Of a stretch of DNA of 64,000 bases, positions 36,053 to 53,431 are shown piece by piece. The translations under genes were made by a program, and so were the position numbers. Position 1 is the stretch's first letter, and every line of letters starts with the position of its first letter. Source of the DNA: a virus; IMG/VR virus record IMGVR_UViG_3300046513_000235, positions 1 to 64,000 of that record. One strand, written 5' to 3'. The notes beneath the pieces were generated by a model. The model was given only the letters and a program-made list of their open reading frames with translations. It was not told where the DNA came from and searched no databases.

Positions 36053-36448
36053 TTATTGTGCCTGTTGTTCGTCACTTTCCTTTTGTTCGGTGACCACGTT
36101 TTGCAACTTGTACGTTTTTAATACGTTATGGACATAATTATAATTGGTGGACAATTCGATCGATATTTCCTTATTGGTCTTGCCGTTCAAATACATCGCA
36201 ATGATCAAATCCTTCTTCACGTTCTTTTCTTCAGCTACTAGTTCAATCTTATTCATGTTCACATAGTTCGATACGACGTTATATACGAAATTGTATCTAA
36301 CATCCATTACTGTCGAAATTTCCTTGACTGTCATTCCGATATCAAACATATTTTTCATCTTTTCGGATTTACTGGACGTTTCGTTCGACGTGATAGCGGC
36401 GATCATTTTGTCAGTTACTTTCTTTGCGTTTTCGATGTTCTTTTTCAT
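36053..36448 (-). CDS. two-HTH repeat protein, AT-rich paralogue
   Basis: 131 residues from ATG 36448 after AAGGTGGA. Two HTH modules: SEKMKNMFDIGMTVKEIS continuing to NVVSNYV, and KKDLIIAMYLNGKTNKEIS continuing to HNVLKTYK. Closely related to the protein at 38.1 kb, but AT-rich and on the opposite strand. Probably DNA-binding. The modules resemble the recombinase / sigma region 4 type of HTH. Confidence 0.75.
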   Translation of the reverse strand: MKKNIENAKKVTDKMIAAITSNETSSKSEKMKNMFDIGMTVKEISTVMDVRYNFVYNVVSNYVNMNKIELVAEEKNVKKDLIIAMYLNGKTNKEISIELSTNYNYVHNVLKTYKLQNVVTEQKESDEQQAQ

Positions 36449-36504
36449 AGTTAATTCCACCTTGTTATTATATTTAGAAAGTGTTTGTTACTTTCTATAT
36501 ATTT

Positions 36505-36533
36505 ATTATAACTGATAACGCGACAAATATCAC
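36505..36533 (-). promoter_or_regulatory. sigma-A-type promoter
   Basis: Minus strand: GTGATA, 17 bases, TATAAT, then AAATATATAGAAAG. Upstream of the AT-rich two-HTH gene. Confidence 0.75.
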
Positions 36534-36767
36534 GCTGTTTCGCACTGTAAGTTTGGAAACACTAGGACGCGGCTCGTTTAATCGGGGAAACCGTAACGCA
36601 CTAAACATTCAGCGTTTCTTTGATTAACGTGTTAACCGTTTACCCGGCCGCCGACGCCACATTGGCCCGTCTCTGGACTCCGCTAAACCGGTAACCGTTT
36701 CCTCCACGAAGCAGGGTGCGTCCTAGGGGAACGTGGGAACGGTTTCCCCGACGACTCGCCGAAGCCG

Positions 36768-36796
36768 TTGATATCTTAGATATTCTGTGATATAAT
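36768..36796 (+). promoter_or_regulatory. sigma-A promoter
   Basis: TTGATA, 17 bases, TATAAT. Upstream of the one-HTH gene at 37.0 kb with a long leader. Confidence 0.85.
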
Positions 36797-36970
36797 TAAA
36801 TTAAGAAGTAAGGAAGAGTTTCCAAGATTAACGAGATCCCCTTAGACCCGCTTACAAGGTTCCTCGCTACCCCTCCTGTTCAACAGGAAGCTCACCGATT
36901 CCCCCGGGAAACGTTTAATGGAGTAATCCGTTATTCACTTCTTCACCTAACTTGGCAACCACCAATACGC

Positions 36971-36992
36971 CCTATAAAACGTCAGCAATTGA
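36971..36992 (+). repeat. CCTATAAAAC-N7-ATYGA repeat 1
   Basis: CCTATAAAAC, 7 bases, ATTGA. Part of a possible hairpin through GTCAG and CTGAC. Lies in the leader of the one-HTH gene. Confidence 0.75.
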
Positions 36993-37036
36993 CTTCTGAC
37001 GGGGCGTGGTTGTAATAATCTAAGGGAGTGTTGAAG

Positions 37037-37246
37037 ATGGCAGTAACAGCAGCAAAGTTGTCGAAGTCGGAACAGATTAGGAGAATGTTTGACGCGGGTA
37101 TGTCGGTTGCGGAGATAGCCAATTCCATGCAAATTCGTTATCAGTTCGCGTACAACGTAATCTCCTACCACATCAAGACTAAGGGGGGTGTATCAGATGC
37201 TCCTCGGACTGATTATGATAGCAGTATTCATCGGGATGTGTGTTAA
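37037..37246 (+). CDS. one-HTH repeat protein
   Basis: 69 residues from ATG 37037 after AAGGGAG. One HTH module: SKSEQIRRMFDAGMSVAEIA, then IRYQFAYNVISYHI, matching the first modules of the 36.1 and 38.1 kb proteins. The tail after the module has no recognisable domain. Its 3' end overlaps the next gene in another frame by 50 bases. Likely a small DNA-binding regulator. Confidence 0.7.
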   Translation: MAVTAAKLSKSEQIRRMFDAGMSVAEIANSMQIRYQFAYNVISYHIKTKGGVSDAPRTDYDSSIHRDVC

Positions 37247-37412
37247 CGAGCAAACCAAGAGGCACTGCCGCAAAGGGAATCACGTGTGGAAACCTTATGG
37301 TCCACACAGAATGGAATGTAAGCATTGTCATGCGCTAACAGGTATTATTCCTCCTTCTCCTACCAACGTATACGAATATCCGACGACTGTGCGACGTTAC
37401 CGGCCTATGTAA
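37197..37412 (+). CDS. small membrane-anchored zinc-ribbon protein
   Basis: 71 residues, ATG 37197 after AAGGGGGG. Membrane segment MLLGLIMIAVFIGMCV, then HCRKGNHVWKPYG and CKHCHALTG with Cys/His spacing suited to zinc. The gene at 46.2 kb encodes a protein of the same plan (membrane segment, then C-KHGHRW and CKCCGK). Function unknown. Confidence 0.65.
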   Translation: MLLGLIMIAVFIGMCVNEQTKRHCRKGNHVWKPYGPHRMECKHCHALTGIIPPSPTNVYEYPTTVRRYRPM

Positions 37413-37423
37413 ACATTCCCGGG

Positions 37424-37445
37424 GAGGGTACCGCAAGGTACCCTC
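37424..37445 (+). terminator. GCAA-loop hairpin
   Basis: GAGGGTACC, GCAA, GGTACCCTC: a perfect nine-pair stem with a stable tetraloop, followed by TTATC. May attenuate or protect mRNA before the next gene. Confidence 0.55.
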
Positions 37446-37464
37446 TTATCTAAGGAGGATAACG

Positions 37465-37695
37465 ATGAAAAGATTGGTTAATTGGGTACTAGATCGGCTG
37501 TTTCCCGTAGTAACACCTCCCATTATTCCACCGCGAACCCAGAAAGCACGAGGATTGAACATAACTTTCCATAATGTAGTAACTTACGTGCCGAAACGTG
37601 AGAATAAGCCATTAGCTACTGTAATTTCGATAGAAGACCGCCGAAAAGCGGAATTCCTCGTATGGAGGGAGAATAACGCCCTTTTATTCGCCTAG
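37465..37695 (+). CDS. hypothetical small protein
   Basis: 76 residues, ATG 37465 after AAGGAGG. Basic, with PPIIPPRTQKARG and ISIEDRRKAEFLVWR. Not recognised. Confidence 0.6.
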   Translation: MKRLVNWVLDRLFPVVTPPIIPPRTQKARGLNITFHNVVTYVPKRENKPLATVISIEDRRKAEFLVWRENNALLFA

Positions 37696-37779
37696 GACGC
37701 TGGGTGTTTCATGGATTACCGTATTAATTTACTAAACACCGGGCGGTACGGATGGGTTATCCTATTCCACCACGAAGCC

Positions 37780-37880
37780 CAAGCATCCCAGGCCCATCTC
37801 CGCCGCCCAACATATGGCCTATTAAAACGCCTGCGATTGTCCTATGTACGCGCCCTATAAAACCCCTCACATCGACCCCA
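37780..37880 (+). repeat. composite repeat 1 with CCTATAAAAC repeats 2 and 3
   Basis: AAGCATCCCAGGCCCATCTC starts the unit. Repeat 2 (37818-37840: CCTATTAAAAC, 7 bases, ATTGT) and repeat 3 (37854-37875: CCTATAAAAC, 7 bases, ATCGA) follow. The GGCCCATCTCC box recurs at 38930 and 39728. Confidence 0.75.
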
Positions 37881-37979
37881 CCACGCGGGGCCCAACACAG
37901 CCACCACTTGGAGTACTTATACCCACCCTATCTAGGCCATTAACGGAAGTTCCACGCGTAATTTATTTTCAAAATAACG

Positions 37980-38008
37980 TTGATATTAAGTTTGTTATGT
38001 AGTATAAT
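37980..38008 (+). promoter_or_regulatory. sigma-A promoter
   Basis: TTGATA, 17 bases, TATAAT, followed by ATAAATATAG. Drives the GC-rich two-HTH gene. Confidence 0.85.
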
Positions 38009-38065
38009 ATAAATATAGAAGGAAGCAAACATTCCTTCAAATAAAAATCAAAGGTGGAATCCCAA

Positions 38066-38515
38066 ATGCAAAGAGCGATGGAAATCAACGTAAAGACCCA
38101 ACCAAAGGCAGCAGAGAAGGTGCTGGCAGACACAACTACCAGCAAGTCCCAGAAGATGAAGGACCTGTTCGACCTGGGTTTCGAAGTCAAGACTATTTCA
38201 GAAACCATGGGTGTCCGTTACAACTTCGCCTACAACGTGATTTCCAACTATGTCAACATGAACAAGATCGAATTGGTACAGACGGAGAAGTCCGGCAAGA
38301 AGGAACAAATCATCTCCATGCACCAAGCGGGCAAGACCAACAAGGAGATCAGCATCGAGCTCTCTACCAATTACAACTACGTGTTCAACGTTTTGAAAAC
38401 CTACAAAGCATCCCTGCCTAAGCTCGTCATCGACTTGACCAAGATCAACATCGATCCCGAAGTACACGCCGAAGACCCGGGACAGGGCGAAGTGGTGCAG
38501 GAGGAAGCTGAATAA
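38066..38515 (+). CDS. two-HTH repeat protein, GC-rich paralogue
   Basis: 149 residues, ATG 38066 after AAAGGTGGA. HTH 1 (about 26-62: SKSQKMKDLFDLGFEVKTIS then YNVISNYV) and HTH 2 (about 77-113: KKEQIISMHQAGKTNKEIS then FNVLKTYK), with an acidic C-terminal tail. Nearly the same HTH cores as the 36.1 kb protein, but with C/G-ending codons, so the copies diverged in base composition while protein sequence was kept. Likely binds DNA as a regulator. Confidence 0.78.
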   Translation: MQRAMEINVKTQPKAAEKVLADTTTSKSQKMKDLFDLGFEVKTISETMGVRYNFAYNVISNYVNMNKIELVQTEKSGKKEQIISMHQAGKTNKEISIELSTNYNYVFNVLKTYKASLPKLVIDLTKINIDPEVHAEDPGQGEVVQEEAE

Positions 38516-38754
38516 TGAAGAAGTTGTTGGTACTGCTCCTCGGCCTCTCGGTTGCGGCTTACGCAATCGTACCCTACACCGTCACACAGGTTGGCGGTGA
38601 AGGGTATTCCCTCAAGACCAAAAGTGGTATCGTCCTGCACATCAACCAAACGGACGTACTCAACAACAAACGCCTAACAGAAGGCGAAAAAGTGTATGGA
38701 ATATTTCTCCCCGCGGCCATGGATGAGTCCCACTTTGTAGGGGTTATAAACTAA
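38515..38754 (+). CDS. small secreted or lipid-exposed protein
   Basis: 79 residues; the start overlaps the preceding stop (TAATG). Signal peptide or anchor MKKLLVLLLGLSVAAYA, then a small beta-rich domain. Translationally coupled to the HTH gene. A role at the cell surface is possible (for example superinfection exclusion), inferred from the signal only. Confidence 0.65.
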   Translation: MKKLLVLLLGLSVAAYAIVPYTVTQVGGEGYSLKTKSGIVLHINQTDVLNNKRLTEGEKVYGIFLPAAMDESHFVGVIN

Positions 38755-38848
38755 CCCCTTCCCTTCGGGGTCTTAAGGCGGAAGGAGGTACTGCGCCCAC
38801 CCCTGGTATCCATCGAATACCGACCAACCTCATAGATGCGTCCTCTTT

Positions 38849-38874
38849 AGCCCACTCCTAGGGCTCTTTTTATT
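38849..38874 (+). terminator. terminator after the secreted-protein gene
   Basis: AGCCC, seven-base loop, GGGCT, then CTTTTTATT. A weaker ACCCC/GGGGT hairpin lies at 38754-38771. Confidence 0.7.
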
Positions 38875-38916
38875 CCCTCTTGCAGCCCACCGGCCAGGCC
38901 CAACTGGAACACCCAG

Positions 38917-39023
38917 CCGAAGCAACCTCGGCCCATCTCCACAGCCCTATAAAACGCACAAGAATACGCCCAACCTACCGGCAAGGCGCAACTTAAGGAC
39001 TATTAAAACAAACTGGGTTGACC
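38917..39023 (+). repeat. composite repeat 2 with CCTATAAAAC repeats 4 and 5
   Basis: GAAGCAACCTCGGCCCATCT starts the unit. Repeat 4 (38945-38966) has CCTATAAAAC and a degenerate second box; repeat 5 (38999-39021) has CTATTAAAAC and TTGA. It lies at the 3' end of a convergent gene. Confidence 0.65.
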
Positions 39024-39556
39024 TACTCGTGGATGCCCAACTCCAGCAACTCATTCTCAATCTCCCACTGTGACCACGTGAACGTTTGTAGGAAATCATA
39101 AGCGGCATCATAAGTACATCCACGCCCATCAACCGTAGCTTCTAGGTAAGCATGGGGACTCATCGACTCCAATATCTCCTCAGAACCCTCCTCACCGAAA
39201 CGATAATCCCTCATAAGTACCCCACAGAATACCCCATAATCCAACAACAGCTCTGCAGTCGACTGGTAGGCCTCCTCCTCTTCAACAGGTTCCTCCAACT
39301 GCTTTAACAAGGCCACCTTATACATCTCGAGTTCCACCAGAGCCCCTGCAAGAGTGGCAAGATATGGGATAGTTTCCTTGAGTGAATAGGATGTCCGCTC
39401 GAGAGTCCACTGGGGAGCATCGGCAGTCAATTCCCCTGATTCATACTCAAGGCATTCCCGGATCTTTTCCAAGATGTTATCCACCTGATGCAGACCCCAC
39501 TGCTCAATCACCATTCCCCATTTAGCCAATACGAACATTACGTTTTGCATTTCCAT
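39023..39556 (-). CDS. hypothetical acidic protein
   Basis: 177 residues, helical, acidic and Trp-rich; TAAGGAGGAATTAGTA precedes ATG 39556. LLDYGVFCGVLMRDYRFGEEGSEE and a C-terminal QTFTWSQWEIENELLELG. Not recognised. Own sigma-A promoter upstream. Confidence 0.7.
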   Translation of the reverse strand: MEMQNVMFVLAKWGMVIEQWGLHQVDNILEKIRECLEYESGELTADAPQWTLERTSYSLKETIPYLATLAGALVELEMYKVALLKQLEEPVEEEEAYQSTAELLLDYGVFCGVLMRDYRFGEEGSEEILESMSPHAYLEATVDGRGCTYDAAYDFLQTFTWSQWEIENELLELGIHE

Positions 39557-39594
39557 TACTAATTCCTCCTTAAGTTGATCTCTACTATACTTAT

Positions 39595-39623
39595 ATTATA
39601 ACACACATCTTCAGAAATGGCAA
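39595..39623 (-). promoter_or_regulatory. sigma-A promoter
   Basis: Minus strand: TTGCCA, 17 bases, TATAAT. Upstream of the acidic 177-residue gene. Confidence 0.75.
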
Positions 39624-39716
39624 CACCCGGGTGATAAGATTATTTCACAGGACTACCCAGATGGTTATGACGTCTGGAGACTTTGAGAATATCCTCTACC
39701 TCACCACTTTTAACAC

Positions 39717-39863
39717 CAAGCAACGCCGGCCCATCTCCGCGGACCAGTTGTGGTTGGCATTAAAACGCAGTCTATCGACCTATGCAGCGCCCATGTACAG
39801 CTCCTATAAAACGCTTGGCATTGAACCCAGTACAGAGCCTATAAAACGCCCACCATCGAGCCC
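39717..39863 (+). repeat. composite repeat 3 with CCTATAAAAC repeats 6-8
   Basis: AAGCAACGCCGGCCCATCTC, then repeat 6 (39758-39778, CATTAAAAC, ATCGA), repeat 7 (39803-39824, CCTATAAAAC, ATTGA) and repeat 8 (39838-39859, CCTATAAAAC, ATCGA). The 7-base spacer is kept in all three. Confidence 0.8.
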
Positions 39864-39935
39864 GTGACCCGGAGGCCGCTTCGCTGAGCCAATCTGGACA
39901 TAGTTGCTAGACATGAAATAAAATCTTATGAAATG

Positions 39936-39974
39936 GTGCAATTGAGAGTCTCTCTGGATATTATATAAATATAA
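39936..39974 (+). promoter_or_regulatory. phage-class promoter element, variant
   Basis: GTGCAATTG, 12 bases, then GATATTATATAAATATAAAC. Shares the GTGCAATTG left box with the late promoter at 34.1 kb. Before the HNH-like gene. Confidence 0.65.
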
Positions 39975-39995
39975 ACGCCATAAGGAGGACTTATA

Positions 39996-40433
39996 ATGGG
40001 AAAACAACCACAAGTAGTAAAGTCGGAGGATGTTAGTCGGTATCAGGGCTTTTGGATCTGTGATAATGGCACAATAATTGAGCGTTCTACTGGGAAGATT
40101 ATGCCCATCTATGAAAACGGGGGAATTCGCCTGCTTTGTGAGGATGGCTTAGTACGTAATACACAAGCTCATCGACTTATTGCGGCAGCGCACGTGGATA
40201 ATCCTGACGGATACAAATATGTTGGCTTTAAGGACGGCGATTCTACCAACCGTAATGCGGATAACTTGTTCTGGATCAAAACGTACAAGCAAATCAGTCA
40301 AACTACGCAGGATATCCTATCTTTATACCGTTCGGGTTGGTCTACCGTTGAATTAGCCCGTAAGTTTGTCAAAACTCCGCAGTACATCAATCGGCTCCTT
40401 AAGGATTTCCGTAAAAACGACTCCTCGCTTTAA
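39996..40433 (+). CDS. degenerate HNH-like DNA-binding protein with C-terminal HTH
   Basis: 145 residues, ATG 39996 after AAGGAGG. The middle matches NUMOD4/HNH_3 nucleases (HRLIAAAHVDN, then DGDSTNRNADNLFW), but the catalytic VNHKD is replaced by VGFKD, so the key Asn-His is gone. The C-terminal segment QDILSLYRSGWSTVELARKF then QYINRLLKDF resembles the HTH modules of neighbouring proteins. Probably a nuclease turned regulator. The double-HNH protein at 53.5 kb keeps the intact version. Confidence 0.75.
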   Translation: MGKQPQVVKSEDVSRYQGFWICDNGTIIERSTGKIMPIYENGGIRLLCEDGLVRNTQAHRLIAAAHVDNPDGYKYVGFKDGDSTNRNADNLFWIKTYKQISQTTQDILSLYRSGWSTVELARKFVKTPQYINRLLKDFRKNDSSL

Positions 40434-40450
40434 TTTCCTTCCTTTCAGAG

Positions 40451-40530
40451 GCTCTATGAACCCTATTTCAGGATCCCAAAAGTGTCTCCCCGTTGATATA
40501 TATAGGGAAATTCAATGGGTTCATAGAGAT
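40451..40530. repeat. inverted repeat flanking a 54-base spacer
   Basis: CTCTATGAACCC and GGGTTCATAGAG, extended by partial pairing of CCCTATTTC with GGGAAATTC inside. Could be an operator pair or a folded RNA. Confidence 0.6.
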
Positions 40531-40863
40531 TTACCAAAATTCCAATCCTTCAATGCCCGCCCCAAGCTTATTATATATATATAGCGCGGACGGGGTGTCA
40601 AGCGGTACGGTTCTCAATAGATAGGGTTCTGTATAGTTACGGTATCTATAGTCGGGATGAGTGTAGGGCCTCGTGTTTGTTAGCTATATACTCCAATAGA
40701 CACTCTCGTCTTATTTAGTCCTTCTATATACCTAGTTTAAAACACTGAAATAATGAAATATTGAAAAGTACTATATATATCAACGTGGAGATACGTTCAG
40801 TTTCCTATACTAAACAAATGCACATCTTGAAATCCTGAATCAGAGCTACCTACTTACGCCCGA

Positions 40864-40918
40864 TCAAAAGCAAAAAGAAACCGACCTATCAACAAATAAA
40901 TCGTTGGTAAGTCGGTTT
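40864..40918 (-). terminator. terminator of the leftward 41-47 kb operon
   Basis: AAACCGACCTATCAAC pairs with GTTGGTAAGTCGGTTT (two mismatches). On the minus strand it is followed by CTTTTTGCTTTT. Confidence 0.8.
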
Positions 40919-40925
40919 GTAATTG

Positions 40926-40948
40926 CCCTATAAAACCAAAGCAATTGA
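40926..40948 (+). repeat. CCTATAAAAC-N7-ATYGA repeat 9
   Basis: CCTATAAAAC, 7 bases, ATTGA, just outside the 3' end of the last leftward gene. Confidence 0.7.
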
Positions 40949-40949
40949 G

Positions 40950-41576
40950 TTATAGGTCGCGCAAGACATTTCTGCGGTCAAGTAAGTCATCTGGCTCTGT
41001 ACCGCTTTGCGGACTGTTGCTGACGGAAGACTCGTCTACACTTGTGTAATAAAGTTTGCCATCAATGTAAAGAGACTTAACAACAGAATCGTCAGCTATT
41101 ACCTCCAGAATGCGATCAGCTGGAAAATTAAATGCACCTCGACGGATACCATATAGAAGCTGTTCCGCCACATAGATACGATCGTCGTTGTCGTCATATT
41201 CAGCAAGCTCATTGACTAACCATTTAATGACATTACTAGTTACGAGTGCGGTAGTTGCAGCCTCCAGACGATACAGATTTGATACAGTGCCACGAGGTTG
41301 CCAGTCTGCCAACGTAGCAGGTAGGTCTGACGAGAAACAGAAGTCAGTTACCCTGACGGCAGGTGACTTAACCAATTCGAGGTCGTCATTGTAGATACGC
41401 TGGAAATAGTCGGCCTTGTCGATGAAATTGCTCCTAGGATTGATCTGCAATTCAGGTTCCGCTCCGTCTATCGATATTGCAATGATTACGTGTGTGATGT
41501 CCGGTCTTGCAGGTGAGCGTAAGGCTGAAACAAGTGCTTGTTTGGATACCTCGTGATTAAATCTGATCGATGTCAT
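40950..41576 (-). CDS. hypothetical protein
   Basis: 208 residues, soluble, mixed alpha/beta, with RIYVAEQLLYGIRRGAFNFP and a disordered Ser/Pro/Asp-rich end. Its start overlaps the upstream gene by 20 bases. Not recognised; last gene of the leftward operon. Confidence 0.65.
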   Translation of the reverse strand: MTSIRFNHEVSKQALVSALRSPARPDITHVIIAISIDGAEPELQINPRSNFIDKADYFQRIYNDDLELVKSPAVRVTDFCFSSDLPATLADWQPRGTVSNLYRLEAATTALVTSNVIKWLVNELAEYDDNDDRIYVAEQLLYGIRRGAFNFPADRILEVIADDSVVKSLYIDGKLYYTSVDESSVSNSPQSGTEPDDLLDRRNVLRDL

Positions 41577-42027
41577 TGGTGTTACCCTCCTTGGGATGGA
41601 TTGAACTTTCGATACCTGGGTACTTGTCCTCGTCCGTGAGCTTTTCGCAATTGATTACAGTGAACTCCGGGCCTAGCTTCATAATGACATTGAACTTGTC
41701 CCACACCATGATCTTGAATGTGCTTTTGTTAAGCTTGGAGTTATACGTCTTCAGTGCTTGCGCTGCCTCTTCAGTGGTCTTGTACTTAGTTGCCTCAGCA
41801 TAATTGGGAACTACTTGCATTGAATAGTAACCATTCCCTGCAGAAGCACTACTCCGCCGCGTTTTAAGATAGAGACCGCTTACCTTGTCCCTCACTACGT
41901 AACGATACCGATCATTAGGACCCGTACCAGGGTTGGGTTGTTTAGGTAGCGAAGCATTCCGATCCCTGCGCGTTGGTTCGGCAGAGTCACTGTCTCTGTT
42001 CCATGCAAACTTCTTGGCTTTTGCCAT
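41557..42027 (-). CDS. hypothetical protein with AP2-like core
   Basis: 156 residues from ATG 42027 after AGGAGGCATTAGC. A basic, disordered N-terminus (about 1-45), then DRYRYVVRDKVSGLYLKTRR and EAAQALKTYNSKLNK, somewhat like an AP2-type DNA-binding fold. The disordered part encodes PNPGTGP from interspersed element copy 10. Confidence 0.55.
   Translation of the reverse strand: MAKAKKFAWNRDSDSAEPTRRDRNASLPKQPNPGTGPNDRYRYVVRDKVSGLYLKTRRSSASAGNGYYSMQVVPNYAEATKYKTTEEAAQALKTYNSKLNKSTFKIMVWDKFNVIMKLGPEFTVINCEKLTDEDKYPGIESSIHPKEGNTNDIDQI
41923..41970 (+). repeat. interspersed CGTACCAGG element, copy 10
   Basis: CGTACCAGGGTTGGGTTG, then GCGAAGCATTCC 26 bases from the box start. Antisense in the disordered N-terminus of the downstream protein. 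Confidence 0.75.
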
Positions 42028-42028
42028 G

Positions 42029-42103
42029 CTAATGCCTCCTGTCGTAATAGAATGCAATAATCACTACCAAGACGATCAGTAGCCATGTGCTATTGGATAT
42101 CAT
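42029..42103 (-). CDS. tiny membrane protein
   Basis: 24 residues: MISNSTWLLIVLVVIIAF is one membrane segment, ending YYDRRH. AGGAGGCGCGGAGG lies directly upstream, and the stop TAG lies within the ribosome-site region of the next gene. Plausible small coupled gene. Confidence 0.5.
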   Translation of the reverse strand: MISNSTWLLIVLVVIIAFYYDRRH

Positions 42104-42174
42104 CCTCCGCGCCTCCTAGACCCAATTGAAATTGTTCATGAACTAATGCCAGAGGCACCAGATAGAGCGGCTAC

Positions 42175-42219
42175 GACCGCGAGTAATGCATGCTTCGCAG
42201 CCAACCCACACCTGGTACG
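42175..42219 (-). repeat. interspersed CGTACCAGG element, copy 11
   Basis: CGTACCAGGTGTGGGTTG, GCGAAGC 21 bases from the box start, then GCGA/TCGC pairing. Between the SpoIIID homologue and the tiny membrane gene, about 13 bases after the stop. Confidence 0.85.
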
Positions 42220-42232
42220 TCGCTCTTAGGTA

Positions 42233-42535
42233 TTAAGCCCAGGTGTTCTGGTATTGGGATGCCAAAGCTGCTTTCCGTTTGTTCCACTTCACCTTAGTGG
42301 CTTCTCCGCCACGCAGATGCATGATTGCTTTATGCATTTCCATGATACTTTCGACTTGACCAGCCAGTAGCGGATTAATGGTAGGTAAGAGTTCACGCAT
42401 ATCCTTGTGCACCGTTGAACTACTTACATTGAAATGGTAACCGGCCTGTCTTACTGTGCACCGTGTAGCTATGATGTGCTTTGCTACTGCAAGTGTCCGA
42501 TCATGTCGTACCTGTGCTGCTTTAATCTTCTTCAT
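42233..42535 (-). CDS. spoIIID: SpoIIID-like sporulation transcription regulator
   Basis: 100 residues, ATG 42535 after AGGAGGG. Matches SpoIIID, the mother-cell regulator of endospore formation: CTVRQAGYHFNVSSSTVHKD (HTH, about 27-46), ELLPTINPLLAGQVE and IMHLRGGEATKVKW. SpoIIID acts on many sigma-E genes and on sigK. On a phage it could steer host sporulation or repurpose the HTH. Identity is strong in the recognition helix and in the LRGGEATK tail. Confidence 0.93.
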   Translation of the reverse strand: MKKIKAAQVRHDRTLAVAKHIIATRCTVRQAGYHFNVSSSTVHKDMRELLPTINPLLAGQVESIMEMHKAIMHLRGGEATKVKWNKRKAALASQYQNTWA

Positions 42536-42546
42536 GAGTATCCCTC

Positions 42547-43324: not shown

Positions 43325-43331
43325 TAAGATC

Positions 43332-45586: not shown

Positions 45587-45588
45587 AC

Positions 45589-46145: not shown

Positions 46146-46153
46146 AGTACCTC

Positions 46154-46348
46154 CTATTTCAATTTGTGACTTTCCGGTTTGATGTGTAATGTGGCATAGT
46201 AAGTCTTACCACAGCATTTACATCTAAGACGGTTCGTAGATCTGCTAGGTGTCCAACGGTGGCCATGTTTCTTACATCTTGCTTTCCTGGCTGCGTGACG
46301 TACAATTAGGAAAGCTATGAACACAGCCAGGGTAAGCAACGAAGTCAT
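46154..46348 (-). CDS. small membrane-anchored zinc-ribbon protein
   Basis: 64 residues: SLLTLAVFIAFLIV, then C-KHGHRW and CKCCGKTYYA. Same plan as the 37.2 kb protein. Starts four bases inside the upstream gene. Confidence 0.6.
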   Translation of the reverse strand: MTSLLTLAVFIAFLIVRHAARKARCKKHGHRWTPSRSTNRLRCKCCGKTYYATLHIKPESHKLK

Positions 46349-46554
46349 TGGCTGTCGTTATATTTCAGTACTACTTGTTCTACGATGGTCGTCACTGGTG
46401 TATCCGTTTCAAACGTATGCCCACATCTGTTGCAAGTTAATTTGAAGCTATCATGGGCGAATAAGTCGGTGTTACCACAAGCAGCACAACAAATACCTAT
46501 TGGTTTACTCGGTTTAAAAGGCTCTTCTTCTGTCATAATCTGAAACCTAGCCAT
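46345..46554 (-). CDS. zinc-ribbon protein
   Basis: 69 residues; overlaps the upstream stop by eight bases. C-x2-C (CAACGN) and C-x2-C (CNRCGH) knuckles form a compact ribbon. Possibly nucleic-acid binding. Confidence 0.6.
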   Translation of the reverse strand: MARFQIMTEEEPFKPSKPIGICCAACGNTDLFAHDSFKLTCNRCGHTFETDTPVTTIVEQVVLKYNDSQ

Positions 46555-47128
46555 TGTTTGATGCCCCCTGTCTGAAAGCTGATGTAAAGTTAACTCTGCG
46601 ATAGCGTAACTCATTTTCCAACATTTCGAGATATTCACTTAACTCATCACGTTGTACTTCATAATCCCGCTTATGTGAGCTAATCCAGCGAGCACGTAAG
46701 CTCTTATGAATTTCTAACACCGACTGTAGTGAAGCCTTTGCCAGTTCTTGCTTTCTTTCGATATCGTGTACCTGAAAGCTGGCCAGATCATCTTCGCATA
46801 AAGCATAAAGTTCGCTAAGAGGTTCCCTAAATGCCTTGACAAGAAGCAGACGTTCTTTCAAGTCCCTGGTGCCATTGTTATCTGACAGGTTATTACGTTG
46901 TAGCATACTCTGCTTACGCTGTAGTTGACCATTAAGTCCCATTGCTGTAGCAGCATACAGATTAACTACTTTGAACAGATTAGCTGGCGTCTTGCCATGC
47001 TTTTCAAGGTATCGTTCACAAGTACGTATAGAAGCTAGCGTAGAGCTAACGGTACTAAAGTCCAAGTTAACTCGTGCCTGCTGCCATGAGTAGACGTACA
47101 ACGAACGTTTCTTGATACTCATTGTCAT
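46547..47128 (-). CDS. hypothetical helical protein, first gene of leftward operon
   Basis: 193 residues, ATG 47128 after GGAGGTGATAAG. Almost all helical and rich in Leu, Arg and Glu; coiled-coil-like. The phage-class promoter lies just upstream. Not recognised. Confidence 0.65.
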   Translation of the reverse strand: MTMSIKKRSLYVYSWQQARVNLDFSTVSSTLASIRTCERYLEKHGKTPANLFKVVNLYAATAMGLNGQLQRKQSMLQRNNLSDNNGTRDLKERLLLVKAFREPLSELYALCEDDLASFQVHDIERKQELAKASLQSVLEIHKSLRARWISSHKRDYEVQRDELSEYLEMLENELRYRRVNFTSAFRQGASNNG

Positions 47129-47154
47129 CTTATCACCTCCACAGTTTATTCGCT

Positions 47155-47195
47155 TTATATTAATATAATATTCAAACTTATTTTGAAATGAACTA
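47155..47195 (-). promoter_or_regulatory. phage-class promoter element (copy 5)
   Basis: Minus strand: TAGTTCATTTC, 12 bases, AATATTATATTAATATAA. Drives the 41-47 kb leftward operon. Confidence 0.75.
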
Positions 47196-47196
47196 A

Positions 47197-47391
47197 TTAC
47201 GAAGAAAGTTTTTCAGCTGAATTTTGTTCCATTACGTAGCGCCGTATGGCTACTAACACAACTTCCTTGTGCTTGAACCGGACATCCACACGTTCAGTAG
47301 CCATTACCTCCATGAATTGCTCGAAGGTAAGGCTCTGCAACCAGCAGAACGTATCGGCCATTTCATTAAGTTGTTCCTCTGTTATCACCAT
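47197..47391 (-). CDS. hypothetical small protein
   Basis: 64 residues, AAAGGAG upstream. LNEMADTFCWLQSLTFEQF, helical. Overlaps the upstream gene by 26 bases. Confidence 0.55.
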   Translation of the reverse strand: MVITEEQLNEMADTFCWLQSLTFEQFMEVMATERVDVRFKHKEVVLVAIRRYVMEQNSAEKLSS

Positions 47392-47587
47392 AATACTTTT
47401 TCTCCTTTTGAGTCATACCCCTCACATAAGGCTTAGTAGGTGGTGGGGTAACTCCATATTGTGTGGCCAGGGTCAGTAATTCTGTGTTACTCATTTGATA
47501 CGGGTCTTTGATGAAAGTAGCCTGCACGATTTTCAAGTTAGTAATTAATTCAATGCGCCACCGTTGTGCGTTCTTACACTTACCCAT
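47366..47587 (-). CDS. hypothetical small protein
   Basis: 73 residues, AGGAGCTGATTTAA before ATG 47587. Basic; SNTELLTLATQYGVTPPPTKP. Not recognised. Confidence 0.55.
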   Translation of the reverse strand: MGKCKNAQRWRIELITNLKIVQATFIKDPYQMSNTELLTLATQYGVTPPPTKPYVRGMTQKEKKYYGDNRGTT

Positions 47588-47599
47588 TTAAATCAGCTC

Positions 47600-47776
47600 C
47601 TAATACTTTTTGCGTTGTCTGGGTGCTTCTTGCGTTTGTAGTACGGCCATTACGGCACGATACGGTATATGATACCGTTTCGAATACCAATTGATAAATT
47701 CTCTGTCGGTCATATTATTGTAAATCTGCCGACACTCACGAATACTCTGTTTATACGTTTCCTGCGTAGTAGCCAT
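47600..47776 (-). CDS. hypothetical small protein
   Basis: 58 residues from ATG 47776 after GGAGGGTGATG. MTDREFINWYSKRYHIPYRA suggests a small helical DNA-binding-like fold. Confidence 0.55.
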   Translation of the reverse strand: MATTQETYKQSIRECRQIYNNMTDREFINWYSKRYHIPYRAVMAVLQTQEAPRQRKKY

Positions 47777-47885
47777 TAACATCACCCTCCAAATTGTCTC
47801 CAAAAGTAGCTAAAAAAGAAGGAGCATTCCTAAAAATGCCTGGCCATCGCATTCTTATGAAATACTCCTAGTGTATGTTATGATA

Positions 47886-50504
47886 TCATTTAGCTTGGTC
47901 GCGTACTTGAGTTAGATCAATTAGAGGGGCTCCTGTTGTTGCGTTCCCTGATGTATGTCCATCTGCTAGATCAATCTCTTGTAGTTTGTCAGCAGCATAT
48001 TTGCGAATACTCTCTGTGAACTTACCATGATGTGCCTCATTTAAGAGGTATTCTAAGAAGCCTGTATTCGTTATGTTCAAGCGCAAGCCTATCCAACATT
48101 CCGTCATTACTTTATTGACGTGTAATGTGTGGGTGGTTCTTGCCTTGGATAACTTGTGCTTCTTCTCGAGGTATCTGGATAGGTGTTCTACCTTCTTTTG
48201 GACGGAAGATTCACGGAAGCCTATCCATTGGTCAAAGATGTAATTGATGAAACTAGAAGGCGTACCGCAACGAACGATCTTACCATCAGTCGCTACAGAT
48301 TCTAAATCGAATGTCTCGAGGCAGTTCGTAAAGAAGTCTGCGGTAATATCATTCTCCTGCGTGTATGCCAGCTTTTTCGCATTGGCCGTTAATGAATCGC
48401 TGAATGCTTGATTAACGACTAAACGTCTGAGACCTTCAAGGGACCAATTAAAGATTCCTGAATATTCAGCCCTAAGCTGCTCCATGATCTCAAATTTAGG
48501 GGTGACACTTCCGGTAAAGTCCTGTTCGAAGGGTACCATGAGCATGCGCCGTAACCAGCCTTCTGATTTATCACCAGTCTTGATGTCATGATTGGACGCG
48601 AAAATAAACTTGGCAGTATTGTTGAATGTGATGGGTGACTGATTTTTGACGTCAGCGATAATACGTCCTCCAGAGACAAGGTTTTTGAAGTCATCAGCGG
48701 CCCCACCACGAAGATACTCTGAACCTGCTTCGTTAACGATGTTGAGTACTTTTCCGACCAGCGACGAAGATCCAAAGCGGCTAAATAGCGTTCGCATATT
48801 AATCGAATCGACAACGTCATATCCAAGTAGCCCCTGTATGGTCTCGAGGAATAATGACTTACCGTTGGCTCCTTCACCTTGGATAACAAGGGCCTTTTCA
48901 AAGCCCATGTAAGGTATAAGGGCATAACCAATGAACTCTTGAAGGATAAGCCGAGCACCTTCATCGGGCAACCACTCCTTTAATCTTAACTCCCACATAG
49001 GAGATTTGGCTGTTGGATCGTATTGAACCGGTAGCACATAAGTTAGATGTGTCTCGGGATCCCAAGAATGCACTTCCCCCGATTTCCAATCCAATAACTT
49101 GCCTCCAGCCAAGGGAATGTACTGAAACTGTGCTATAGTCTGCGTATCCAGGTTGCGGGAATTGACCTTCCAATACCGCTCTTGAGAACGCAACTCCACT
49201 ACTAGGGCATTCGCGACATCCTTGTAATGTCGAATGGTTGTCCATGCCGGATTACCTCCATACTTCTCATTTCCTAAAGCATCACGGATATACACTTGGA
49301 AAGAACCATTACGAGTATCAATAGGCTCCCAAGGGCCGTGCGTCTTTTGGGTCATCCATACTACAGGATGCTCTGGATCGACTTTGACTACATAACCTTT
49401 AGATTCCATTAAGTTAAGAACTACCTGAGCAATTTCCCCTGGAGCAAAGATGGGAGCTTTGTCGTCGCCGCCCTTCCCTTTCTTGTACTTAGAGGATTTA
49501 ATTGCTTCAGATTCCCAAAAATGGTTCACCTTAGATTCAATAGCAAAATCATCTAGTGGGGGATCACAATAAGCCAAGTTATGACTCTTAGCCATATGCA
49601 TGATGTAATCCTTACCTGCACTACGGAAATTAGCACAGAAGCTACCAATAATTCGAGTCATCTGATTGTCACGATTACCCGAAGTGATCTTCTGTGTTAG
49701 CTCACTCTCGTCTACCTTACCATCATCCGTCTGTTGTTTAACCTCTTTGCCAGTATACTCAACATTCGGTGGTTTAATATCCAGGTCAATGCTTTCGTAG
49801 TCCGAGAACTCACTAGCCATTGTTTCCTTAGATACGATGATAGGTTTAACGTCTGCGAACTCTTCCAAGGATGCAGGAGCAGACCCCCCTGGTGCTGGGC
49901 TCTTAGGTTGATCTAGTCTAACTAGATCCAATAACCACTTAGGAGCCGGTGCACAATCGATATCCTCCGGAGAACAACCAACTTCCCAAGTATAAAGACG
50001 TCCTGAATGATGTGTGGAAGGTGGCATTACTGTTTGTTGTCCTTCACAGAGGATTGAGCACTCCTCATGCACTCCCTCACCCGGATTAACGAATTTCTTC
50101 GTTGGTAAGCCTACCGGGAAAGTGTATAACAATCTCCGACCAGCTCCTGTAGAGAATTCCCAGGTATCCGGAATGTCCCCTCCGGATATTTCCTCCAGCA
50201 TATCCTCACCAGCATACCCGTCAATGTCAATACCTACATATCCGGAATTAGTGCCTAATGGAAGACCTACATTGAAGTTAGGGAATTCTTTTGTCCAAGA
50301 ACGAACCTGGTCCATAGTGGTTACTTGCTGTGTTCGCCACCCTTTAATAAGGGGAATCTTACCGGCTTGCTTGCATGTCGAAGTGTGCTTAGCAGAGTAT
50401 CCCTTATGGTCGTGGGAGCATAAAGGTATGATCGGTAAGCCCATGTCAACATACATTTGCAAGGCCGTAAGAACGTTTTCACGATCTTTTTTGGTGTCGC
50501 TCAC
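47886..50504 (-). CDS. PrimPol-SF3 primase-helicase
   Basis: 872 residues. N-terminal primase-polymerase with GIDIDGY (D93, D95), an upstream zinc-like CSHDH/TSTCKQ segment and WEFSTGAGRRLLYTF. A C-terminal D5/P4-type SF3 helicase has Walker A QGEGANGKS (about 545) and FIFASNHDIKT, followed by the RRMLMVPF arginine region. It should open the origin and prime replication. A low-complexity PAPGGSAPAS linker joins the domains. Pairs with DNA ligase and polymerase A in the replication set. Confidence 0.88.
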   Translation of the reverse strand: MSDTKKDRENVLTALQMYVDMGLPIIPLCSHDHKGYSAKHTSTCKQAGKIPLIKGWRTQQVTTMDQVRSWTKEFPNFNVGLPLGTNSGYVGIDIDGYAGEDMLEEISGGDIPDTWEFSTGAGRRLLYTFPVGLPTKKFVNPGEGVHEECSILCEGQQTVMPPSTHHSGRLYTWEVGCSPEDIDCAPAPKWLLDLVRLDQPKSPAPGGSAPASLEEFADVKPIIVSKETMASEFSDYESIDLDIKPPNVEYTGKEVKQQTDDGKVDESELTQKITSGNRDNQMTRIIGSFCANFRSAGKDYIMHMAKSHNLAYCDPPLDDFAIESKVNHFWESEAIKSSKYKKGKGGDDKAPIFAPGEIAQVVLNLMESKGYVVKVDPEHPVVWMTQKTHGPWEPIDTRNGSFQVYIRDALGNEKYGGNPAWTTIRHYKDVANALVVELRSQERYWKVNSRNLDTQTIAQFQYIPLAGGKLLDWKSGEVHSWDPETHLTYVLPVQYDPTAKSPMWELRLKEWLPDEGARLILQEFIGYALIPYMGFEKALVIQGEGANGKSLFLETIQGLLGYDVVDSINMRTLFSRFGSSSLVGKVLNIVNEAGSEYLRGGAADDFKNLVSGGRIIADVKNQSPITFNNTAKFIFASNHDIKTGDKSEGWLRRMLMVPFEQDFTGSVTPKFEIMEQLRAEYSGIFNWSLEGLRRLVVNQAFSDSLTANAKKLAYTQENDITADFFTNCLETFDLESVATDGKIVRCGTPSSFINYIFDQWIGFRESSVQKKVEHLSRYLEKKHKLSKARTTHTLHVNKVMTECWIGLRLNITNTGFLEYLLNEAHHGKFTESIRKYAADKLQEIDLADGHTSGNATTGAPLIDLTQVRDQAK

Positions 50505-50521
50505 CCTGCATCAAACTCCCT

Positions 50522-51562
50522 TTAACTAAACTCCCACGTACACTCTTTAGCGGTCTTTGTCTCATGTAAATTCTTGAAGTTAGGGTGGCGTGGAAATCCG
50601 TCGGTTGTCTTTTCCATGAATGTCACACGTGCTACCTTACCTATATAGGCTTCCTTGTTTCGGGACAACTCTTCACGCATGGCTTGATTCATTCCGGATG
50701 CGTCACAGATATGAATAAGGTCTCCGTCTACGTAAGCCCCCAACTTAACTGAACCTATCCAATTTTTGTAATGATTTTCTGTGACCGGAACTTCAGTGCC
50801 ATTAATCTCTTGCCAGTACGACCAGGTTTCTAGGTTTTTACCCGTATATTCACGCTTAGCTTGAACATACCCGATAATAACTAGATCTGTCTCGTCGTTC
50901 TGCTTGAATTTCATCCATTGCCACATAGGTTTCTTACCCATGATGTAAAGGCTGTCCAACTTCTTAAGAACACCTCCCTCGAATCCGTTATCCAGCAGAT
51001 CCTGTAGGAAAGTTCGCTTATTATCTACGGTTACAGGAACCAGATGGATATATTGCTCCATCTCTGTACCCTGCACATAAGTATTATAGAAATACACCAG
51101 CAGATTACGGCGCTCTTTGTACGTATTCTTAATGAGCCAGTTAGCTTTAGGCGAACGTAGCATATCAAAGATAGTGTAATGTATATAACCATTCAACTCT
51201 TGGAATGCTAATGCACCTGCAGGTAATGGACCTGTTACGTGTGTTGCATACTGGCTTGTTTTGCCTGGGTAATGTAATTCGCCATCAAGGATGAGATTAT
51301 ACATCGCAAGTTTACGGAAGAAATCACGTAAATGCGGGAAGTTGTCGGTTTTTTCTACATTATCAGAACTGTAGAAACGATATCCGAGAACTTCATATCT
51401 ACACCCATCAATCTTTTCCTCCATTGCCCAATCAGATGAGTCTAGTAACTTGTCGAGCTTAGCTACATTGTTGGCATGGTCCTTATCTACCTTGCCGGGT
51501 TTCATGACTCCAACGTGTTGAGCTAAGGAGGCGATTAATTCGGCTGATGGTTCAGTTGCCAT
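50522..51562 (-). CDS. ATP-dependent DNA ligase
   Basis: 346 residues with motif I EEKIDGCR (nucleophile K50), LILDGELHYPG (motif III), EGGVLKKLD (motif IV) and MKFKQN (motif V), then an OB-fold end. Compact size, as in phage nick-sealing ligases. Downstream of the small gene behind the 51.9 kb promoter. Confidence 0.92.
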   Translation of the reverse strand: MATEPSAELIASLAQHVGVMKPGKVDKDHANNVAKLDKLLDSSDWAMEEKIDGCRYEVLGYRFYSSDNVEKTDNFPHLRDFFRKLAMYNLILDGELHYPGKTSQYATHVTGPLPAGALAFQELNGYIHYTIFDMLRSPKANWLIKNTYKERRNLLVYFYNTYVQGTEMEQYIHLVPVTVDNKRTFLQDLLDNGFEGGVLKKLDSLYIMGKKPMWQWMKFKQNDETDLVIIGYVQAKREYTGKNLETWSYWQEINGTEVPVTENHYKNWIGSVKLGAYVDGDLIHICDASGMNQAMREELSRNKEAYIGKVARVTFMEKTTDGFPRHPNFKNLHETKTAKECTWEFS

Positions 51563-51576
51563 AGCTCCGCCTCCTC

Positions 51577-51834
51577 TTAAGTATCACATTCAATGTACAA
51601 CAATGCTGCATGTACCATAGCTTCCTGCATGTTTTCCTTACGCTTGGTGACCATCTCTTTGAATTTCCAGTAAATATCAGCAGGAACAAGAGCACCAAGC
51701 ATTTTGGCTTCCTCTACCTCCATAGAAACCCTATTAAGATTAATAATGTGTTCCTTGTCAGATCCGCTACCTAGCCGAATCAGTTCTGGTTGCGGAACAA
51801 TGCCTCCGGATGCTAGTTTAGCAGGTTCACCCAT
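51577..51834 (-). CDS. small protein, possible ribbon-helix-helix
   Basis: 85 residues from ATG 51834 after AAAGGAGGTGAATAAA. The C-terminal half has a strand, then LVPADIYWKFKEMVTKRKEN and MVHAALLYIE, which could form a ribbon-helix-helix. Leads the ligase/primase operon. Confidence 0.55.
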   Translation of the reverse strand: MGEPAKLASGGIVPQPELIRLGSGSDKEHIINLNRVSMEVEEAKMLGALVPADIYWKFKEMVTKRKENMQEAMVHAALLYIECDT

Positions 51835-51863
51835 TTTATTCACCTCCTTTCACTGATAAGGTG

Positions 51864-51905
51864 TTTATATTAATATAATATTCAAGATAATTTTGAAATG
51901 TACTA
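51864..51905 (-). promoter_or_regulatory. phage-class promoter element (copy 6)
   Basis: Minus strand: TAGTACATTTC, 12 bases, AATATTATATTAATATAAA. Upstream of the small gene, ligase and primase operon. Confidence 0.75.
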
Positions 51906-52073
51906 TAATTGCAAAATAAATATGGAGATGTATTTCCGACTGAAGTTGCCTTCTTTCTTATTTAATATAGAGCTGAAAATTTTATTGCTTTCAAAGCCTG
52001 AAGCAGAGAGAGGCCTTAGCTGCTTCGGTGTGAAGGTGAAGATAGGGTTTGTTTTGTTTGAGAAAGTGGCTTT

Positions 52074-52125
52074 CGTACCAGGTGGTGGTTTGTTATTCGG
52101 CTTGCCGCGAGCGTTCCTGGGGTTG
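52074..52125 (+). repeat. interspersed CGTACCAGG element, copy 13
   Basis: CGTACCAGGTGGTGGTTTG, a CGGC-TT-GCCG hairpin and GCCGCGAGC. In the divergent promoter region. Confidence 0.75.
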
Positions 52126-52175
52126 TTTCAGGGACTACACTACGACAATAATAAATAAAATTCTTTTTGCAAATT

Positions 52176-52215
52176 TAGTTCATTTCATTTGCAAACGTAT
52201 ATTATATTAATATAG
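52176..52215 (+). promoter_or_regulatory. phage-class promoter element (copy 3)
   Basis: TAGTTCATTTC, 11 bases, TATATTATATTAATATAG. Drives the three-HTH gene. Confidence 0.75.
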
Positions 52216-52270
52216 AGCGAAGTTAGTAAGCGCTTAAGAAATCAAATATATCCTTTGGGAGGAATTGACA

Positions 52271-53431
52271 ATGGCTAGAAAGAGCAAGAACGACAATGAA
52301 ACAAACTTCTTGGGTGCAGAAGGTGAAGTAGTTGAAACGGCAGAAACCACGGAACAAGAAGGCGCGGTCGAAACCGAAGGACAGGAACAAGGCGTATACA
52401 TCGATGCAACCGCAGATAATGTACCTGCCGGCGACGCTGAAGCATCTGATACCGGAGCTGCTGGAGAAGTAACTGGCGAAGGTGCAGAATTCGATGGTTC
52501 CGCTCCTGATGCCGACGAAGCAGCTTCCGAAGCATCTGACGATCGTGTTTGGACTGTTGATGGCGCTACAGTTTCCAAATCGGAATTCATCCGCCACAAG
52601 TTCACCAAGGAAGATATGGGACGGAAAGAGATTTCCGAGAAATATGCAATTAACTACCGCACGGTTTATGGCGCTACCATGAACATGGTCAATGGTGCAG
52701 AAGCTTCCACCCGTGGACGTACTGCTTCCGCTACGAAGATCCTTATTACTGCCGATAACCGCGTTGTATCGTACGTGAAGGATGCCGAGTCCGGCGTTGA
52801 AATCCTCCATATCAACAATGCAGCAGTTGCTGACGATGCTTTGGTTGTTACACCAGCAGTTCTGGATGAAATTACCAATGAAGAAATTACTCCTGCGGTG
52901 CAGGAAGAGCTGACTGAAGTGGATCGCAACACTTGGATCAAACAACAGGTAGCCGCTGGTGTATCTCGTGGTGATATTGCTTCTGCGCTGGGTCTTTCCT
53001 ACGGCGTGATTTACGGTATCACTAAGGATGCTGAAGGCTCTTCGAACCGCCATGAAGTGGAAATCAAGGATGCTGAAGGAAACGTTGTAGAAACGATTTC
53101 CCGCAGTGAGCACATCCGCAGATTGTTCGCAACAGGCAAGACAAAAGCCGACATTGCGAAAGAGCTGGGTGTTGACTACCCTATCGTATGGGCAGCTTTG
53201 AAGGGTCTGAAGCCTGAATCCGAAAAGTTGGCTGATGCAATCGACAAGCTGGAAAAGTTCGCAGGCCAGGTTGAGCAGGCTACTGAGTTCGCTGAACTCA
53301 TCGCACAGCTGAAACTGATCACCTTGAAAGCCCCGGTTGAAGAAACCACTGAGGAAGCTGCGGCTGAAGAAGCTGCTCCTGCTGAGGAAGTACCGGCTGA
53401 GGAAGTTACGCAGGCTGAAGTAACTGAGTAA
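52271..53431 (+). CDS. acidic protein with three HTH modules
   Basis: 386 residues from ATG 52271 after GGGAGGAATTGAC. An acidic, disordered N-terminus (about 90 residues), then HTH 1 (SKSEFIRHKFTKEDMGRKEIS), HTH 2 (RNTWIKQQVAAGVSRGDIAS) and HTH 3 (SEHIRRLFATGKTKADIAK), then an acidic, Ala-rich tail of repeated EEV/AEE. The modules follow the same SExIR-x2-F-x8-IA pattern as the smaller proteins. The acidic ends are like regulators that contact polymerase or DNA-bound partners. Strong terminator downstream. Confidence 0.78.
   Translation: MARKSKNDNETNFLGAEGEVVETAETTEQEGAVETEGQEQGVYIDATADNVPAGDAEASDTGAAGEVTGEGAEFDGSAPDADEAASEASDDRVWTVDGATVSKSEFIRHKFTKEDMGRKEISEKYAINYRTVYGATMNMVNGAEASTRGRTASATKILITADNRVVSYVKDAESGVEILHINNAAVADDALVVTPAVLDEITNEEITPAVQEELTEVDRNTWIKQQVAAGVSRGDIASALGLSYGVIYGITKDAEGSSNRHEVEIKDAEGNVVETISRSEHIRRLFATGKTKADIAKELGVDYPIVWAALKGLKPESEKLADAIDKLEKFAGQVEQATEFAELIAQLKLITLKAPVEETTEEAAAEEAAPAEEVPAEEVTQAEVTE

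Follow-up and report, generated by a model that had tools for sequence, protein, structure and literature searches.

Module-bearing genes in the window

Within the 64,000-nt window (the whole stretch of viral DNA that was analysed), four genes, here called A, B, C and E, encoded proteins carrying one to three copies of a short helix-turn-helix (HTH) module, and a fifth, D, encoded a degenerate HNH-like protein. The likely ATG starts of A, B, C and E (36448, 37037, 38066 and 52271) were chosen by eye from ribosome-binding sites. The genes and modules were as follows.

36053–36448, − strand: A, two-module HTH protein (ATG start; listed ORF 36053–36460; orthologue in G001)
36269–36373, − strand: A module 1 (SKSEKMKNMFDIGMTVKEISTVMDVRYNFVYNVVS; module HMM 1.1e-19)
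36116–36217, − strand: A module 2 (KKDLIIAMYLNGKTNKEISIELSTNYNYVHNVLK; module HMM 3.5e-16)
37037–37246, + strand: B, single-module protein (module HMM 7.2e-18)
38066–38515, + strand: C, two-module HTH protein (ATG start; listed ORF 38054–38515; NF040595 Cbp1 E 1.3e-8)
38141–38245, + strand: C module 1 (module HMM; AlphaFold helices 31–40, 45–52, 56–71)
38297–38398, + strand: C module 2 (module HMM; AlphaFold helices 82–91, 96–102, 107–120)
39996–40433, + strand: D, HNH_3-like but degenerate, with a helix pair at the C-terminus (HNH_3 E 7e-4)
52271–53431, + strand: E, three-module protein; N-terminal arm acidic and disordered, C-terminal tail acidic
52574–52669, + strand: E module 1 (module HMM 2.6e-12; AlphaFold helices 105–114, 120–126, 131–139)
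52934–53026, + strand: E module 2 (module HMM 6.1e-11)
53099–53191, + strand: E module 3 (module HMM 4.4e-13)

When the module HMM was iterated against 673 six-frame ORFs of the window and L005, exactly eight modules of about 31–35 residues were recovered in the window, two in A, one in B, two in C (E-values 1.3e-17 and 2.8e-17) and three in E; the best full-sequence E-value in the reversed-ORF control was 2.0. Profile-profile comparison joined the two-module and three-module families with a probability of 97% (E 7e-11). The original prediction had counted at least eight shared HTH modules and proposed a profile search and a structure prediction of E; the search recovered a real family of that size, and the AlphaFold models of C and E contained tri-helical HTHs. 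Its description of the two-module paralogues as differing in strand and base composition also held. A lies on the − strand and C on the + strand, their GC contents were 0.36 and 0.48 (GC3 0.52 and 0.71), and of the 66 core residues that are identical, 34 were encoded by different codons. Both strands and the GC contrast were retained in G001, in which the orthologue of B was 85% identical. The helix pair read at the end of D fared less well. The module HMM matched the G001 counterpart of D, which is 25% identical (E 0.0018; 8.5e-5 in another run), but failed to detect D itself among the window ORFs, so that membership of D in the family is suggestive only.

Apart from Cbp1, the only matches of A, B, C and E in Pfam, PHROGs, NCBIfam and PADLOC were weak or to generic HTH families. 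Pfam assigned HTH_23 and HTH_28, barely over the cut-off; unlike a specific family assignment, these are superfamily-level matches that name no function. In the PDB, 8vd6 matched both the two-module and the three-module profiles and was rejected as a solved relative; since the associated paper (PMC12339374) reportedly concerns protein design, it was taken to be a designed repeat. A match to 2lvs was found at E 0.034, titled in the database as a putative uncharacterised protein, which we take to be a Cbp1 structure.

The 29-bp element and the oriented arrays

Copies of a 29-bp asymmetric element were present both at E and alongside the two-module genes, which were also surrounded by arrays of shorter units. 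The sites in the window were as follows.

36648–36676, + strand: GGCCC[AG]TCTC element ('leader'; PWM score 26.4)
36970–36991, + strand: CCCTATAAAACG..GCAATTG unit (score 27.1)
37775–37803, + strand: GGCCCATCTCC element heading an array (PWM)
37818–37874, + strand: two array units 35 nt apart (scores 25.5, 24.6)
38914–38942, + strand: GGCCCATCTCC element heading an array (PWM)
38945–39020, + strand: two array units 54 nt apart (scores 20.3, 14.1)
39712–39740, + strand: GGCCCATCTCC element heading an array (PWM)
39756–39858, + strand: three array units 46 and 35 nt apart (scores 17.9, 26.0, 28.2)
40926–40947, + strand: CCCTATAAAACC..GCAATTG unit (score 27.2; kept in G001)
51866–51881, − strand: ATATTATATTAATATA promoter-like box of the leftward early operon
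52003–52031, − strand: 29-bp element between divergent promoters upstream of E (PWM_T score 14.3)
52199–52214, + strand: promoter-like box for the E operon, a mirror copy of the leftward box

PWM_T, a matrix built solely from 21 elements of the two-module regions, matched the interval upstream of E in all ten genomes G000–G009, with 33 matches elsewhere in about 447 kb. In 9/9 genomes having E on the contig, the E-upstream element was carried by the opposite strand to the gene. It was placed upstream of both divergent promoters, indicating that neither promoter would transcribe it. Among 14 further high-scoring sites that were picked, 13 were intergenic and four directly followed the DNA polymerase gene. 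By contrast with PWM_T, a matrix trained on six E-upstream elements (PWM_E) missed the E-upstream sites of all four genomes outside its training set (G000, G001, G005 and G006), and a combined matrix found no element in G010, showing that the element is loose. An IMG/VR scan with the operator pattern returned three contigs. Two belonged to this lineage and had both served for training; the third was a chance match inside what by eye looked like a portal gene, and none of its ORFs matched the window.

Exact ATAAAACG array cores were found within 3 kb of two-module genes in 29 of 33 cases and kept to one strand per region, so the predicted neighbourhood of module proteins and short-repeat arrays was confirmed at the sequence level. 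No exact core was present in G008. The local repeats were degenerate words of 13–24 nt, repeated directly on the same strand with a period of 23–46 nt, and an IMG/VR scan with the array pattern returned one contig, of this lineage. Some units fell in the 3' or leader regions of genes and thus could be RNA elements. Read on the opposite strand, the array word suggested a T7-like promoter, of which TATAGGG is the motif; this reading was dropped because no single-subunit RNA polymerase was found among the proteins scanned (part of the proteome).

Lineage and gene neighbourhood

The module family marked an uncultured phage lineage of 18 IMG/VR records, a little-known group with spore-forming bacteria as putative hosts. 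The closest isolate phages shared about 42% identity in TerL and about 35% in ligase, and tblastn with C or E gave no match in isolate phage records. When 84,980 genomes were scanned twice by pattern, no cellular relative was confirmed, and Pfam placed the modules only in the generic HTH_23 and HTH_28; plain copies of a host HTH with a known role, the case named beforehand as fatal to the prediction, were thus not found. As far as could be searched, the sequences support a phage rather than a host origin. No paper on phage tandem or triple HTH proteins was found in a literature search of partial coverage.

The gene for E opened the rightward early operon and was the first gene past the divergent ligase/primase operon in all ten records with E flanks examined (G000, eight loci and G006). 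The two-module genes clustered near the small terminase gene TerS wherever both were on the contig; TerS itself was a separate gene (33113–33991; phrog_6299, E 1.1e-14). SASP and SpoIIID genes also lay nearby; phage sporulation genes are treated in PMC10294663.

Interpretation

We consider the chances about even that these proteins are duplicated tri-helical HTH regulators reading the phage's own asymmetric sites. One tri-helical HTH would have been duplicated into a regulator family of the lineage. Each protein would probably span an extended asymmetric word of DNA and read one sub-site with each head, as Cbp1 does on CRISPR repeats with its three heads. For E, the most likely targets are the 29-bp element lying between the divergent early promoters beside its own gene and the copies in other intergenic gaps; binding there would therefore give it control of itself and of the early operons. 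The two-module proteins (A, C and paralogues) would most likely read the related GGCCCRTCTCC elements, the oriented ATAAAACG arrays or both, at sites that surround their own genes and lie immediately upstream of the terminase operon. From this pairing we infer operator- or stoperator-like control of transcription at the early and late switch. The dedicated recognition system suggested in the original prediction is partly supported, by the family itself, the constant-orientation arrays beside two-module genes and the 29-bp element that links these genes with E, the repeats being candidate targets of the proteins.

Less probably, though still credibly, the proteins are transcription regulators of an ordinary kind that act on other targets, and the arrays and elements are RNA features (terminators or structured leaders) or sites of another factor, e.g., a phage sigma factor. 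A sigma-70 region 2 protein was encoded at 54.7 kb, some array units lay in 3' regions of + strand genes, and an RNA-like stretch at 36.77–37.03 kb had 94% mean column identity with G001 (384-column alignment; fold z −2.3). However, the position of the E-upstream element ahead of both promoters, the intergenic location of the extra picked sites (13/14) and an Rfam search without a match all speak against this reading. We regard as improbable a phage-encoded, Cbp1-like silencing in which E reads the 29-bp element, at the early switch and in the gaps between genes, as a three-part word and the two-head paralogues read two-part words of the oriented arrays, jointly coating the phage genome or stopping its transcription, possibly quieting it in spores of the host.

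A role of the two-module proteins in packaging, reading pac-like sites beside the terminase genes, has a slim chance. It would fit their position near TerS where both were on the contig, and the small terminase domain of G20c gave a weak superposition with module 2 (Z 5.9, rmsd 2.1, 45 residues). However, HTH folds superpose widely at Z 5.9, TerS is another gene, Terminase_5 scored 15.5 bits (cut-off 20.3) with no match to a recognised TerS family, and related sites recurred far from the terminase, at E and past the polymerase gene. Equally slim is the chance that the arrays serve as iterons, for replication or for partition, with the two-module proteins as their Rep- or ParB-like binders, perhaps carrying the phage genome into spores. 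Same-strand direct repeats with the period given above, ParB and KorB HTHs among the weak fold matches, and the nearby SASP and SpoIIID genes would agree with it; the cumulative GC skew minimum was near 52 kb, away from the arrays, and neither ParA nor an unwinding region came to light in analyses that included no profile of either. A viral Cbp1 relative acting on host CRISPR repeats as a counter-defence would account for the remote Cbp1 profile similarity, yet no evidence linked the phage words with CRISPR repeats and PADLOC matched none of the four module proteins, and we consider it very improbable.

If regulators and sites are paired as we propose, the lineage would offer a naturally graded set of DNA readers with one, two and three heads, alongside candidate words of matching complexity, and would show how long asymmetric operators evolve through added heads. 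It would also extend the Cbp1-like principle beyond CRISPR and beyond archaea, and offer a way into the control of phages infecting spore formers.

Comparison with known systems

The tri-helical fold of the phage modules is common to HTH_23 and HTH_28, resolvase, TerS and paired-domain folds. By sequence profile, the closest known proteins appear to be the archaeal Cbp1 and Cbp2, multi-HTH binders of CRISPR repeats, and the relationship is remote. The Cbp1 profile NF040595 matched C with 34.8 bits (E 1.3e-8) and A with 32.6 bits, and matched 16 of the 18 records (best E 1.4e-12, in G003; best score 43.2 bits); its curated cut-off of 140 bits was exceeded in none of the 18. Below the cut-off it also matched 3 of 14 control genomes, indicating that the similarity is partly general to HTHs. 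The match spanned two HTHs. In Cbp1 and Cbp2 of Crenarchaeota, duplication has produced two or three HTHs joined by short linkers, as in the phage two-module proteins; this likeness is confined to the latter because the linkers of E are long. E further differs from Cbp1 in its long acidic arms and in beta strands ahead of the modules. Both families occur with direct-repeat arrays, and according to PMC10883916 the three HTHs of Cbp1 are aligned 5' to 3' on the CRISPR repeat. The phage arrays, unlike those of Cbp1, are not CRISPR-like in length, and the phage genes belong to bacterial phages and lack Cren7.

The immunity repressor of the mycobacteriophages L5 and TipsytheTRex offers a second comparison. 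According to PMC9283540, it has two DNA-binding domains, the second described as an HTH variation, and many asymmetric sites; its stoperators occupy promoters and short intergenic gaps and are oriented by transcription. No PDB sequence match to the L5 repressor was found, and it was absent among the fold matches listed, an absence that excludes nothing. The phage sites resembled stoperators in being asymmetric, mostly intergenic (13/14) and oriented (9/9 at E), with the module proteins as their presumed binders. The phage family differs from the L5 repressor in having one to three repeated modules and several paralogues per phage.

HTH modules and their paralogues

The window covered nearly all of one IMG/VR phage record of 64,993 bases. 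A module profile, built from five modules and then iterated over the family, recovered eight modules in four proteins; the reversed ORFs used as a control gave no match (best E 2.0). The proteins were:

A, 36053-36448, minus strand: two modules by module profile
B, 37037-37246: one module by module profile
C, 38066-38515: two modules by module profile
E, 52271-53431: three modules by module profile

The HTH module of the original prediction, described from sequence alone, is real. When protein E was subjected to structure prediction, as had been proposed, the AlphaFold model contained three tri-helical HTHs (mean pLDDT 60), two preceded by a beta hairpin and one by a short strand, and an acidic, disordered N-terminal arm. 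The model of C (mean pLDDT 71) had tri-helical HTHs at residues 31-71 and 82-120, joined by a low-confidence linker. The observation was confirmed except for D, the HNH_3-like protein at 40.0 kb (PADLOC label, homing endonuclease-like), whose C-terminal helix pair had been considered a relative of the module: the profile did not detect D in the window, but its counterpart in the related record G001 was detected (E 0.0018). D (39996-40433) and this counterpart were just 25% identical, whereas several adjoining genes reached at least 80%, as if D had been replaced or were fast-evolving.

The two-module paralogues A and C kept protein identity while differing in strand and base composition, as predicted. 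Their overall identity was 57%, with the first linker and both recognition helices almost entirely shared; they lay on opposite strands, GC was 0.36 in A vs 0.48 in C (GC3, 0.52 vs 0.71), and codons differed at 34 of the 66 identical core residues. G001 retained both genes with strands and composition contrast unchanged. Together, these features favor two separately maintained genes that would have similar DNA specificity and different expression.

Distribution in the lineage

Viral contigs scanned by profile and by pattern yielded 17 further IMG/VR records, giving a lineage set of 18. Two-module proteins were found in 16/18 records (G000, the record studied here, to G009 and G011-G016) and three-module proteins in 11/18 (G000, G002-G010, G017). 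Records without one of these types were fragments; every record of at least 57 kb (G000, G003-G006, G008, G009) had both. E lay directly across a divergent junction from ligase and primase, and had an HNH protein after it, in several records also a sigma factor. The two-module genes, usually two or three paralogues, were near the terminase genes TerS and TerL. In a tree of 34 rows (including two E and two B proteins), with many open forks and some long branches, one paralogue clade spanned eight records (support 94/83; inner clade of seven, 96/86), indicating that the duplication is old. Pattern-limited searches of 84,980 bacterial and archaeal genomes yielded no confirmed relative, and neither did tblastn against 50,697 phage records. 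The family is new and lineage-specific.

Two sporulation-related genes were present in the window:

34397-34795, plus strand: SASP, alpha/beta type (PF00269, E 1.2e-13)
42233-42535, minus strand: SpoIIID (PF12116, E 4e-27)

Because SASP occurred in 6/18 records and SpoIIID in 3/18, the hosts are probably spore formers. Sporulation genes in phages are already known, as described in PMC10294663.

DNA words near the module genes

A 29-bp element, related to the GGCCC[AG]TCTCC leader element of the two-module genes, was located between mirrored early promoters beside E. A matrix from 21 element copies, taken from two-module regions only with E-upstream copies kept out, matched the E-upstream interval in 10/10 genomes; the same threshold gave 33 matches in ~447 kb elsewhere. 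In G001, where E is beyond the contig end, the interval was placed by the ligase gene and the small gene beside it. Two results count against this link: in all four genomes outside its training set, a matrix from six E-upstream copies failed to find the site upstream of E, and no E-upstream element was found in G010 with the combined matrix. Among 14 further high-scoring copies inspected, 13 were intergenic, and four of these lay shortly past the DNA polymerase gene. The versions near E (..AGCTT.CGCCCATCTCTT) and near two-module genes (..AGCAAC..GGCCC[AG]TCTCCG) differed fairly regularly, a suggestive pattern that might be expected of two related proteins, each specific to one version.

Array units matching C[TC]AT(A/T)AAAACG, in many cases with GC.ATTGA after them, occurred around two-module genes singly or in runs with a period of 23-46 nt, and the leader element was often ahead of an array. 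In G000, 9/11 unit matches scoring at least 14 were plus-strand copies located at 36.9-41.0 kb, using a matrix partly trained on those same units. In ten genomes, 29/33 exact array cores were within 3 kb of two-module genes, zones that made up 10-27% of each genome. Wherever a two-module region had two or more cores, they were always on one strand; G008 had zero exact cores. The proposed recognition system was partly supported, by the oriented repeats around two-module genes and the related element at E; the pairing of proteins with words is suggested by analogy.

Other words and conserved non-coding stretches

The word CGTACCAG, often followed by GCGAAGC, was genome-wide (e.g., 2534, 7589, 34797, 42219, 52074, 62404), in both coding and non-coding DNA. 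G000 had 15 copies vs 2.8 expected, and 9/10 genomes exceeded expectation more than threefold; CGCACCAG outnumbered it in G003, G004, G007 and G008. A phage-wide promoter-like box, ATATTATATWAATATA (373, 34092, 39958, 47156, 51866, 52199, 59370), had 10 matches at up to 2 mismatches vs 0.12 expected, and its operons included E, early-left and TerS, among others. It is perhaps the target of the phage sigma factor encoded at 54.7 kb.

The non-coding stretch at 36770-37027 (plus strand), before B, was strongly conserved in G001 (mean column identity, 94%); its fold z was -2.3, and by eye it had a promoter, TTGATA-N17-TATAAT. An Rfam search of this stretch gave no match; it is possibly a new RNA. 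A second stretch, 38774-38875 (plus strand), after the C operon, appeared conserved by eye between the window and the related locus L005, and ended in a terminator-like hairpin with a T run.

Comparison with known multi-HTH proteins

According to PMC10883916, the crenarchaeal CRISPR-repeat-binding proteins Cbp1 and Cbp2 have three and two HTHs, respectively, the Cbp1 heads align 5' to 3' along the CRISPR repeat, and Cbp1 alters CRISPR array transcription. The NCBIfam Cbp1 profile extended over two HTHs of C (E 1.3e-8) and A (E 6.3e-8) and matched 16/18 lineage records at E of 0.01 or lower, none above the cut-off; 4/14 controls also matched, one of them above the cut-off. The two-domain mycobacteriophage L5-type repressor is described in PMC9283540 as using dispersed asymmetric sites whose orientation follows transcription. 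By analogy with these systems, the 29-bp element would be read by E, and the related GGCCC[AG]TCTCC element and/or the array units by the two-module proteins; such sites may act as operators or stoperators for early and late genes. By the tests made, the family is probably a member of neither Cbp1/Cbp2 nor the L5-type repressors, but if this reading holds, it would work like the one or the other.
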